Made by a program: the position numbers and the translations under genes
From: Cellulomonas sp.
GTDB lineage: Bacteria > Actinomycetota > Actinomycetes > Actinomycetales > Cellulomonadaceae
Length of the DNA stretch: 32,000 nucleotides
Direction: 5' to 3'
Assembly (NCBI GenBank): GCA_031178805.1
Contig: JAPSIJ010000002.1
Location: 1 to 32,000 of the forward strand
Shown here: piece after piece, positions 25,271 to 28,795 of the stretch
Layout of the letters: each line of letters opens with the position of its first letter
How positions within the stretch are numbered: position 1 is the first letter of the stretch
The notes under the pieces: model-generated
The model's database searches: none
Seen by the model: only the letters and a program-made list of their open reading frames with translations
Told to the model about the DNA's origin: nothing

Positions 25271-26677
25271 TCAGGCGCCGAGCGCCGAGATGAGCAGGCG
25301 GGCCACCGTGAAGTAGAGGATCAGCCCGGTGCCGTCCACCAGCGTGGTGATCATCGGGCCGGACACCACCGCCGGGTCCACCCGCAGCCGCCGCAGCAGC
25401 AGCGGCAGCACCGACGCCAGGACCGTCGACCACAGCACGATCACGCCGGCCGCGACGCCCACCGTCGCGGCCACCTCGCCGCCGACCCCGTGCACCGTGG
25501 CCAGCAGCAGCCCGGCGACCGCGATGGTCGCCGCCGTCATGGTGCCCGCGGCCACCTCCTTCAGCAGCACCCGGCCGACGTCCCGGGTCCGCACCTGCCC
25601 CACGGCCATCGCGCGGACGAGCGTGGTGGTCACCTGGGTCCCGGCGTTGCCGCCCGTGCCGATCAGGAGCGGCACGAAGAACGCCAGCGCGATGACGGTG
25701 GCCAGCTCGTCCTCGAAGGCGCGGAGCACCGTGCCGGTGTACATCTCGGCCGCGAACAGCGCGAGCATCCACACGATCCGGCGCCGCCAGAGCACCGCCG
25801 GCGAGGCGCGGAGGTACGGCACCGCCAGCGGCAGGGCGCCACCCTGGCGGACCGCGTCCTCGGTGGCCTCCTCCGCGACGATGTCGGCCACGTCCGCGGC
25901 GGTGACGACCCCGAGCAGCCGCCCCTCGTCCACCACGGGCACCGCGGTGCCGCGGCGGGCCCGCAGCGCCTCCGCCGCCGCTTCCTGGTCCGCCGTGGGC
26001 GGGACGCCCGCGACCTCGGCCCGCATCACGTCGCCCACCGCGCGGTCCGGCGGGGCGAGGGCCACGTCGCGGTAGGACAGCGCACCGAGCAGGACCGGCG
26101 CCGGGCCGCCCGGGTCGGGGGCCGTCACGTACACCTCGCCGGCCGCGTGGGCCGCGGCCCGCTGCTCCCGGATGCCGGCGACCGCCTCGGCCACGCTCTG
26201 CCCCGGGTCCACGGTGACCACGTCGGGGTGCATCCGCGCGCCCACCGACCCGCGGGGCCAGGCCAGCAGCCCGCGGACCGCCGCCGCCCGGGCGACGGGC
26301 GCCGCGGCGAGCACGTCGGCGCGGTCCTCGGGCGCCAGCGCCCGGAGCACTCCCGCCGCCTGGGCGGGGTCCACCGCCGCCACCAGGCCGGCGCCGACCG
26401 CCGGGTCGACCACCTCCACCAGCTCCGCGGCGACGTAGGGCGCGAGCGAGCCGAGGAGGTCGACCGCCGCCGGGCGGTCCAGCAGGTCGACGAGGGCACG
26501 CATCTCGACCGGGGACAGGCCGGCGACCTGCGCGGCGCGGTCGGGGCCGCCGGGGACGCGGGCCGACCATGCGCGCAGCGTCTCCGGGCGGCCGTCGCGC
26601 ACGACGTCGGCGAGGTGGGTGGCCCCTGCGGTGCCGGGGCGGACGGAGCGGGACGGGGTGGGGACGGAGCGGAACAC
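25271..26677 (-). CDS. mgtE: MgtE-family Mg2+ transporter with CBS domains (paralog 1)
   Basis: MgtE N domain, CBS pair (VYVTAPD..., AVPVVDEGRLLGVVTAADVADIV), TM domain with GTGGNAGTQVTTTLVRAMA. SD GGAGG immediately upstream of GTG 26677. Confidence 0.92.
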   Translation of the reverse strand: MFRSVPTPSRSVRPGTAGATHLADVVRDGRPETLRAWSARVPGGPDRAAQVAGLSPVEMRALVDLLDRPAAVDLLGSLAPYVAAELVEVVDPAVGAGLVAAVDPAQAAGVLRALAPEDRADVLAAAPVARAAAVRGLLAWPRGSVGARMHPDVVTVDPGQSVAEAVAGIREQRAAAHAAGEVYVTAPDPGGPAPVLLGALSYRDVALAPPDRAVGDVMRAEVAGVPPTADQEAAAEALRARRGTAVPVVDEGRLLGVVTAADVADIVAEEATEDAVRQGGALPLAVPYLRASPAVLWRRRIVWMLALFAAEMYTGTVLRAFEDELATVIALAFFVPLLIGTGGNAGTQVTTTLVRAMAVGQVRTRDVGRVLLKEVAAGTMTAATIAVAGLLLATVHGVGGEVAATVGVAAGVIVLWSTVLASVLPLLLRRLRVDPAVVSGPMITTLVDGTGLILYFTVARLLISALGA

Positions 26678-26710
26678 GAGGACCTCCGGGGGGAGACGGC
26701 ACGACGGGGT

Positions 26711-26856
26711 CGCCGGGGCGCCGGGGCGCGCCGGGGTGCGGCGGGGCGGCGGCGGGGTGCGGCGGGGTGCGGGCACGCTCCCGCCCCCGGACCGCGCCGG
26801 GAACGGGCGCGGGCGGGTGGGCGGACGGCGTGCGCGGGGTGCGCGGGGTGCGGGTG
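26711..26856. repeat. G-rich low-complexity repeat tract between the two mgtE genes
   Basis: Iterated CGCCGGGG, GCGGCGGGGTGC and GCGCGGGGT units; many G4-capable runs on the plus strand. Confidence 0.7.
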
Positions 26857-26860
26857 CGGC

Positions 26861-28270
26861 TCAGGCGCCGAGCGCCGAGATGAACAGCCGGGCGACGGTG
26901 AAGTAGATGACCAGGCCCGTGCCGTCCACCACGGTCGTGATGAGCGGTCCGGAGCCCACGGCCGGGTCGACCCCCACCTTGCTCAGCACCAGGGGGAGCA
27001 CGGAGGCGATCAGCGACGACCACACGATGATCGCCCCGGCGGCCACGGCGACCGTGAGCGCGACCTCGCCGCCGACCCCGCTGGTCAGCGCCCGCAGCAG
27101 ACCGGCCGCCGCGATGGTGACCGCGACCATCACGCCGGTCGTGACCTCCTTGCGGACCACCCGGCCGGCGTCGCGCAGGCGCACCTCGCCCGTGGCCATC
27201 GCGCGGATCACCGTCGCGGTGATCTGGGTGCCGGCGTTGCCGCCCGCGCCGATCAGCAGCGGCACGAAGAACATCAGCGCGACCACCGTGTCCAGCTCGT
27301 CCTCGTAGTACTGCAGCACGCTGCTGGTGATCGTCGCGGTGATGAACAGCACGAGCATCCAGACGATCCGCTTGCGCCACAGCAGCAGCGGGGACGCCCG
27401 CAGGTACGGCACCTCCAGCGGCTGCGCCCCGCCCTGGCGGACCGCGTCCTCCGTGGTCTCCGCCTCGACGATGTCGGCCACGTCGTCCCCGGCCAGCACG
27501 CCGACCAGGTGCCCGTCGTCCACCACCGGCAGCGCGGACAGCCGGTGGTCGCGCAGCAGCCGCGCGGCGTCCTCGCGGTCGGCGGTCGGGTCGACCGTGA
27601 CGACGTCGTCCCGCATCACCTCGGCGACGAGCACGTCCGGCGCGGCCAGGACGAGGTCGCGGAACGTCACGGCGCCGAGCAGGGCCGGGCCGCCCGCGAC
27701 CGGGTCGCTGGTGACGTAGACCTCGCCGACGTCGGCGGTGGACTCCGGCTGCGCCCGCAGCGCCTCGACCGCCTCGCGCACGGTCATCGTGGGCCGGACG
27801 GTCACCACCTCGGGGTTCATCCGGGCGGCCGCCGACTCCGCGGGCCAGGCGAGCAGCCCGCGCACCACGGCCGACCGGGTCAGCGGCATGGCGGCGAGCA
27901 GCGCGGCCCGCTCGTCGTCCGGCAGCGCGCGCAGCACCTCCACCGCCTCGTCCGGGTCGAGGCTGCCCACCAGCCCCGCGGCGACGGCCGCGGGCACCAC
28001 CTGCAGCACCTCGGCGGCGGCGTGCGGGTCGACCGAGCCGAGCAGCTCGGCCCCCGTGGTCGGGTCCAGCAGGTCGACGAGCGCGCGGACCTGGGCGTCG
28101 GACAGGTCGGCGACCTCGTCGGCGCGCACGCGCGGGTCCGGGGTCTCCTCCAGCCACACCTCGACGGCGCGGCGGGTGCCGACGTCCAGGACGTCGTGCA
28201 GGTCGAGGTCCGCGGGCAGGCCGTGGTGCGGGTGGCGCGGGGGCAGGGTGCGCAGGGTGGAGCGGGTCAT
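26861..28270 (-). CDS. mgtE: MgtE-family Mg2+ transporter with CBS domains (paralog 2)
   Basis: Same architecture as the neighbour: LVDLLDPTTGAELLGSVDPHAAAEVL, CBS pair with LPVVDDGHLVGVLAGDDVADIVEAETTEDAVRQGGAQPLEVPYLRASPLLLWRKRIVWML, GAGGNAGTQITATVIRAMATGE. SD AGGAG before ATG 28270. Confidence 0.94.
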   Translation of the reverse strand: MTRSTLRTLPPRHPHHGLPADLDLHDVLDVGTRRAVEVWLEETPDPRVRADEVADLSDAQVRALVDLLDPTTGAELLGSVDPHAAAEVLQVVPAAVAAGLVGSLDPDEAVEVLRALPDDERAALLAAMPLTRSAVVRGLLAWPAESAAARMNPEVVTVRPTMTVREAVEALRAQPESTADVGEVYVTSDPVAGGPALLGAVTFRDLVLAAPDVLVAEVMRDDVVTVDPTADREDAARLLRDHRLSALPVVDDGHLVGVLAGDDVADIVEAETTEDAVRQGGAQPLEVPYLRASPLLLWRKRIVWMLVLFITATITSSVLQYYEDELDTVVALMFFVPLLIGAGGNAGTQITATVIRAMATGEVRLRDAGRVVRKEVTTGVMVAVTIAAAGLLRALTSGVGGEVALTVAVAAGAIIVWSSLIASVLPLVLSKVGVDPAVGSGPLITTVVDGTGLVIYFTVARLFISALGA

Positions 28271-28505
28271 GGCGGTCTCCTGTCGGGAGTCCGTGCGGCG
28301 GCCCGGCGGCCGCGGGCGGTCGCGCACGGCGGCGCGGACCGGGCGGACGTCCGGCGGGGTGCGGCACCGTCGGCGGCGCGAGGTGCCCGGGCGCAGGGGC
28401 TCGGGCAGCACGCGCCGGGGGCGGCACGGCACGGTCGCGGGGACGGCCGGCGGCGGGCGGGTGCGCAGCACGGGGGCTGGTCGGGGAGGCGCCGCGTCGG
28501 GGCGG

Positions 28506-28521
28506 CGCCGGTGCTCCGGCG
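28506..28521 (-). other. Second stem-loop in the mgtE leader
   Basis: CGCCGG-TGCT-CCGGCG perfect 6-bp stem (plus-strand representation). Confidence 0.55.
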
Positions 28522-28540
28522 ACGCCCGGTGGATCGCAGG

Positions 28541-28564
28541 CGCCCCGCCGCCCGGAGGGGCGGC
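28541..28564 (-). promoter_or_regulatory. Mutually exclusive hairpins directly after the mgtE leader ORF stop
   Basis: Stem A 28547-28553/28558-28564 (GCCGCCC/GGGCGGC, 7 bp, 4-nt loop). Stem B 28541-28546/28557-28562 (CGCCCC/GGGGCG). The stems share nucleotides 28558-28562. Confidence 0.5.
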
Positions 28565-28624
28565 TCAGGCCGGCGTGCGCACGACGGGCGTCGACGGATG
28601 CCGACTACTCGCGGTGTCGTCCAT
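28565..28624 (-). CDS. Putative 19-aa leader peptide MDDTASSRHPSTPVVRTPA upstream of mgtE
   Basis: ATG 28624 preceded by a strong SD (GAGGAGG TGGACCG ATG); stop at 28565-28567 abuts hairpin A. Confidence 0.55.
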   Translation of the reverse strand: MDDTASSRHPSTPVVRTPA

Positions 28625-28795
28625 CGGTCCACCTCCTCGCCGTCGTGCGTCCGGGCCGCTCGGCCCCCGGTCAGCGTACCGGTCACCCGTACCACACGAC
28701 CAGGACCTCCGGCCCCGCTCCCGGGTGGGGTAGGTGGTCGGCGGACGTCGCCGCACGGCCTGGGGACGACCGGCCGGGTGGGCGCCCGGCGCCAC

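Follow-up and report, generated by a model that had tools for sequence, protein, structure and literature searches.

The window, i.e., the complete stretch of 32,000 nucleotides of Cellulomonas sp. DNA that was analysed, carries two minus-strand tandem mgtE genes, and the leader described here lies between these and a plus-strand recQ-like gene. The first gene, mgtE1 (26861..28270), is the presumed target of the leader and encodes MgtE_N, CBS, and MgtE domains (PF03448, PF00571, and PF01769). The second (25271..26776), whose start codon is uncertain, is 58% identical to mgtE1 and is possibly co-transcribed with it. A leader precedes only the first of the two tandem genes (25271-28270); the tandem arrangement itself is also seen in G056, whose MgtE1 is closest to that of the window.

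All features of the leader are on the minus strand. The leader ORF MDDTASSRHPSTPVVRTPA (28565..28624) starts with an ATG at 28624, comprises 19 codons (20 in the other 13 copies described below) and ends with a TGA at 28567-28565, 294 nt before the mgtE ATG (28270). It is preceded by the Shine-Dalgarno (SD) sequence GAGGAGG (28632..28638), which is invariant in 14 copies, and by a predicted -10 element, TACGCT (28673..28678), which is replaced by TAGGGT, TACCCT, TAGACT, or TATCCT in relatives. Several relatives have a -35 element, TTGGCA, 17 nt upstream of the -10; the -35 of the window is weak. A 7-bp post-stop hairpin (GCCGCCC-CTCC-GGGCGGC, 28547..28564), an alternative 6-bp hairpin (28562-28541), and a stem-loop (28521-28506) are present as well. 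The coordinates of the original prediction, including the SD, the TACGCT element, and the 294-nt distance, all match the window sequence.

Recurrence of the leader ORF and evidence for its translation

Close relatives of MgtE1 (68-100% identity) are encoded by 13 of 82 genus genomes, and the leader is found in all 13 (14 copies) and is missing from the remaining 69. Aligning these relatives, which had been proposed as a check of the prediction, reveals that all 14 copies keep the SD and the ORF frame. Model R1 scores each of these copies at 99-133 bits, compared with 35 bits or less for all other R1 matches across 222 family and 395 order genomes, and it is because of this separation in score that the recurrence is, by sequence comparison, not a matter of chance. 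Fifteen of the weak R1 matches (25-35 bits) were inspected; most look protein-coding and none is leader-like. Pattern matches in other genera (AGCAGTCNGCGTCCGTCGACGTC and others) were set aside as chance occurrences inside other sequence, four of them in one recurring coding-like context.

Leader and gene share one contig in ten genomes. They are on separate contigs in three drafts (G056:C172/C190, G076:C31/C199, and G023:C112/C388), perhaps owing to hard-to-assemble GC-rich structured DNA. Both lie at contig ends in G056 and G076; in G023 the leader is at a contig end, and the region upstream of its MgtE1 on the other contig has a different sequence. Searches with the MgtE of the window matched named records of Cellulomonas hominis, to whose genus the window belongs, and of Cellulomonas sp. 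IC4_254; the C. hominis record also carries the leader (L032). The extra, fourteenth copy (L057, G023:C333:20824-22619) is a TTG-start leader before a second mgtE of G023, a paralogue whose match has an in-frame TAG and which may be degenerating or misassembled.

Several features of the alignment bear on whether the ORF is read by ribosomes. Thirteen copies have 20 codons, the window copy has 19 through a 3-nt in-frame deletion, and the stop codon is TGA in every copy; while ORF length is fixed, the stretch separating the stop from the conserved block that follows is free to range from 23 to 69 nt. The start codon is ATG in all genus copies except L057, and start changes across the genus and other genera are confined to ATG, TTG, and GTG. 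The genus peptide follows the pattern M[DSG][DE][TSA]ASS[RPQ][HR]PSTPVVxxxxx, in which the N-terminal 15 residues are conserved and the last five vary at constant total length, and L045 has two synonymous changes within PSTPVV. Of three Pro codons to which the original prediction had drawn attention, Pro10 and Pro13 are conserved and the third is not kept. We conclude from these comparisons that the leader ORF is almost certainly translated, and we are highly confident that it is a translated regulatory leader ORF preceding mgtE. Conservation of the N-terminal 15 residues could also be expected if a small functional protein happened by chance to be encoded before mgtE, but the last five residues are free to vary and the peptide sequences diverge strongly from genus to genus, making this the least credible of the explanations considered, with hardly any probability.

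Leader ORFs in other genera provide a second line of evidence. Four genomes of g22, a genus of the same family whose genes belong to the same MgtE clade (57-59%), carry the ORFs MDPASSYPPDPPMASVLLGSSRA, MDPASSSPPDPPMASVLRGSSRA, MEPASCSPSDLSMASVLPGDLRP, and MEPASCSPSDLSMASALPGPSRA, each with the SD AGGAGGTGAC and each located 262-371 nt before the matched gene start. Two genomes of g6, also of the same family, carry GTG-started ORFs, MEPPSHSPSRATARPRAL(TTRSF/PVRSR). The peptides of these two genera (MDPASS..PPDPP, MEPASCSPSDL, and MEPPSHSPSR) share the leader position and differ in sequence. Between g22 and g6, Ser is kept while its codon family switches (AGT/TCT and AGC/TCC), which argues for selection acting on the leader peptide. 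Two genomes of g209, from another order, have the ORFs MSPGRSPLSATQRNATPECAHS and MRPGRSPSATTHGNAAFEYPHP, both of 22 codons and both 219 nt before the gene; their homology with the genus leader is uncertain. No comparable leader ORF was found before the mgtE relatives of f13 (L116-L120), before L137, or, with few exceptions, before the more distant mgtE genes that were scanned. Within the genus, a distant mgtE (37%; L023, L147, G055:C17) has a similarly placed SD-led ORF, MSSDDSCSHRPDTAPAARRLHGSV, which resembles MDDTASSRHPSTP; this ORF before the L023 mgtE is kept as a lead only.

The nucleotides of the 14 genus copies are nearly invariant, third codon positions included, as would be the case in a riboswitch for a metabolite or metal if the SD and AUG lay by coincidence within its conserved core and the ORF were not the active part. 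The other genera do not keep such a core, yet they retain the SD, the start, the frame, and the size of the ORF; moreover, the constant length of the ORF and the TTG with which L057 starts point to translation, and a covariance model search gave no Rfam family match anywhere in the window, M-box (RF00380) included. A riboswitch is thus very unlikely here. Across the 82 genus genomes an M-box occurs only in G047, which has no leader, and all leader genomes are without one. This sole genus M-box (L059, G047:C1:215579-215749, 121 bits) is located some 2.5 kb ahead of a distant MgtE-like match that is encoded on the same strand.

Codon usage sets the leader ORFs apart from their genes. NNT codons make up 63 of 382 codons in 18 leader ORFs versus 126 of 7904 in their own mgtE genes, an approximately tenfold enrichment that represents one shared trait of related copies rather than 18 independent observations. 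The earlier suggestion that AGT and CAT are rare was borne out by the six window genes, in which NNT codons account for 0.6% of 2547 codons, AGT for 2 of 89 Ser codons, and CAT for 0 of 43 His codons. Part of the enrichment could come from selection for low structure near the start codon.

Predicted RNA pairing around the leader ORF

A hairpin at or adjoining the predicted transcript start (GGGCC-GAGC-GGCCC, 28653..28666) covaries among relatives (GGRCC/GGYCC, GGATC/GATCC) through compensatory changes (G-C/A-T, C-G/T-A). With arms picked by eye and L040, in which the hairpin is rearranged, excluded, 65 of 65 pairs form in 13 copies, a result equalled by swapped arms in 5 of 2000 trials. A second hairpin, GGCGCCGC / GCGGCGCC (28488..28509), shows the same types of compensatory change (G-C/A-T, C-G/T-A); with its arms likewise set by eye, 84 of 84 pairs form and swapped arms equal this in 1 of 5000. 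RNAalifold recovers both hairpins.

The remaining pairings involve three segments. Segment 1, GCACGACGG (28640..28648), lies directly 5' of the SD and is able to pair with codons 13-16 (28587-28579). Segment 2, CCGTCGACGCC (28587..28597, codons 10-13), is complementary to segment 3, GGCGTCGCCGG (28516..28526), whose conserved form, located past the stop, is GGCGTCG[N]CGG. This long-range 2:3 helix is the RNAalifold consensus helix in the genus and extends over 10-17 bp in most copies, being longest in L010 (17 bp); it is conserved without compensation (swap test 136 of 2000), and most of it is missing in L045. In all three family genera, the 3' half of the ORF is complementary to a post-stop segment. 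For instance, in g22 one pair between the two is fully compensatory and another varies between C-G, U-A, and U-G, although the control for this pairing is weak with four sequences (105 to 127 of 500 shuffles), and in the g6 genome G129 the segments match at 15 of 16 positions, as read by eye.

The alternative 1:2 pairing (GCACGACGG/CCGTCGTGC) is conserved too. It was rejected as the main stem, as three variants (L038, L045, and L057) break it and none compensates. RNAalifold prefers 1:2 in g22, where the SD and start pair with codons 12-17 in the same topology as in the genus. When the window RNA was folded under constraints, with ribosome footprints that are rough assumptions, the absence of a ribosome gave 1:2 and a ribosome at the start gave 2:3; a ribosome at codon 10 covered segment 2, and segment 3 was freed and folded locally.

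Judged by these comparisons, the conserved RNA parts of the leader are the 5' hairpin, the pairing of the ORF 3' half with the post-stop segment, and hairpin 28509-28488. The two post-stop hairpins initially drawn as alternative stems vary in sequence and position among relatives (the 7-bp stem also in length), and they were ruled out as conserved elements on account of this variation; the stem-loop at 28506-28521 is not conserved as drawn, its sequence and position also differing among relatives. What stands of the translation-coupled leader first proposed is the conserved ORF, the presence of complementary segments that could switch with translation, and the missing M-box.

The 217-nt spacer between these elements and mgtE (28271..28487) is C-rich and poorer in G (C 53%, G 33%). 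Its C-over-G skew of 0.24 ranks in the top 0.6% when windows of equal size from both strands are compared, confirming the C-rich stretch that had been noted before mgtE. A C-rich composition is what is expected of a Rho-loading region, and by composition the spacer is a possible region of this kind. Rho is known to act in an actinobacterial Mg2+ leader, that of pe20 in Mycobacterium tuberculosis (PMC12810186). No intrinsic terminator was recognised when the leader was read by eye for a hairpin with a T run behind it.

A model for mgtE control and its candidate signal

We consider it probable that the leader ORF is a ribosome-dependent attenuator of mgtE in cis, including the switch between pairings. 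Transcription would begin at approximately 28666, with the RNA opening in a stabilising hairpin. The strong SD would then allow ribosomes to translate the 20-codon ORF, a step that receives strong support from the comparisons, and the ORF would present them with N-terminal acidic residues, rare NNT codons, and two conserved Pro. Depending on ribosome position, segment 2 may pair with the ORF start region (1:2, no ribosome) or with the post-stop segment (2:3, ribosome at the start), or segment 3 may be left free (ribosome in mid-ORF), as the folding results support. The choice of pairing would set either the passage of RNA polymerase through the C-rich spacer or the translation of mgtE, most likely by granting or denying access to Rho.

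The signal itself is a separate question. In E. coli, low Mg2+ causes ribosomes to leave MgtL at its EPDP motif, closing a Rho terminator (summarised in PMC11282234), and mgtQ acts through Asp2 and Glu5 (PMC8092293). By analogy, low Mg2+ may destabilise or slow ribosomes while they translate the M[DE]P or MDD stretch at the N-terminus. The start of the peptide is MDD, MSD, or MGE in the genus, MDP or MEP in g22 and g6, and MSP or MRP in g209, which has no acidic residue near the start; MDD/MSD and MDP/MEP fit an acidic motif of the MgtL type, and the g209 starts do not. Because N-terminal acidic and Pro residues occur in two other genera, we favour a ribosome-destabilising sensor resembling MgtL over plain proline attenuation. 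That Mg2+ is the signal through such instability is a reading that we regard as reasonable, if a little short of probable.

In amino-acid attenuation, a scarcity of charged tRNA would make the ribosome wait at Pro (or Ser or His) codons and thereby set mgtE transcription. There is a precedent in mgtP, a proline-responsive leader ORF, and the genus has two conserved Pro codons; an NNT-CCG pair also recurs near codons 6-10 in the three family genera and in the ORFs from the other order. On the other hand, each ORF has few Pro codons at most, which are non-adjacent in the genus, no amino acid dominates, and no run of one residue is common to the leader ORFs compared. Furthermore, mgtE has no tie to amino-acid supply, and the single Pro codon of mgtQ worked via base pairing and not as proline (PMC8092293). 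This explanation is accordingly unlikely. A general sensor of translation stress, in which ribosome slowing on NNT codons (by antibiotics, low Mg2+, or cold) flips the RNA and mgtE tracks translation capacity and not Mg2+ itself, is comparably improbable; it would account for the NNT enrichment common to the genera, and an E. coli uORF that senses several classes of ribosome-targeting drugs is on record (PMC12121999), yet the strict tie of the leader to one transporter clade suggests a specific signal.

Relation to known leader systems

The candidate sensor shares with the MgtL leader of mgtA in E. coli and Salmonella a short SD-led ORF upstream of a gene for Mg2+ transport, acidic and Pro residues near the N-terminus (in MgtL the destabilising motif EPDP, in g22 and g6 a MEP or MDP start), predicted alternatives in RNA pairing, and a putative role for Rho, here proposed from composition. 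It differs in belonging to another phylum, in targeting an mgtE channel (PF01769) and not the P-type ATPase mgtA, and in its NNT-rich stretch; no sequence relation is shown, and the genus peptides have MDD or MSD without EPDP. Salmonella mgtQ, located between mgtC and mgtB, similarly has acidic residues in a short ORF and a 1:2 versus 2:3 pairing that overlaps the ORF. However, mgtQ is intra-operon and uncovers the mgtB ribosome site, whereas the present leader is a 5' leader approximately 290 nt before mgtE.

Leader control of Mg2+ transport genes is known in Actinobacteria from the M-box, and the pe20 M-box involves uORFs and Rho termination; unlike these systems, the window and all leader genomes are without an M-box. 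The ilvB-II uORF motif of Corynebacterium is likewise a conserved leader ORF that is confined to one actinobacterial genus and has alternative stems, but represents branched-chain amino-acid attenuation with an intrinsic terminator. The mgtE motif of Thioalkalivibrio (PMC11109978) is also a structured mgtE leader, but is gammaproteobacterial, spans the mgtE start itself, and is a riboswitch candidate, not a leader ORF. No description of the actinobacterial mgtE leader ORF was found among the open-licence papers searched. The leader-ORF principle is known from Salmonella and E. coli, and the actinobacterial example looks independent and undescribed.

More tentatively still, we propose that Actinobacteria have independently evolved a family of nascent-peptide Mg2+ sensors before mgtE, distributed across three or more genera and possibly two orders, which would replace the M-box and sense low Mg2+ through the instability of ribosomes on an acidic/Pro stretch at the N-terminus, with slow NNT codons after it. 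The natural peptide variants (MDD, MSD, MDP, and MEP versus MSP or MRP) would offer a comparison of which residues matter. The ribosome-based Mg2+ sensors of the cited literature are enterobacterial (mgtA, mgtCBR). If the proposal is true, there would be an MgtE-linked leader family where the M-box is missing, and the use of the ribosome as a Mg2+ sensor would have arisen more than once.
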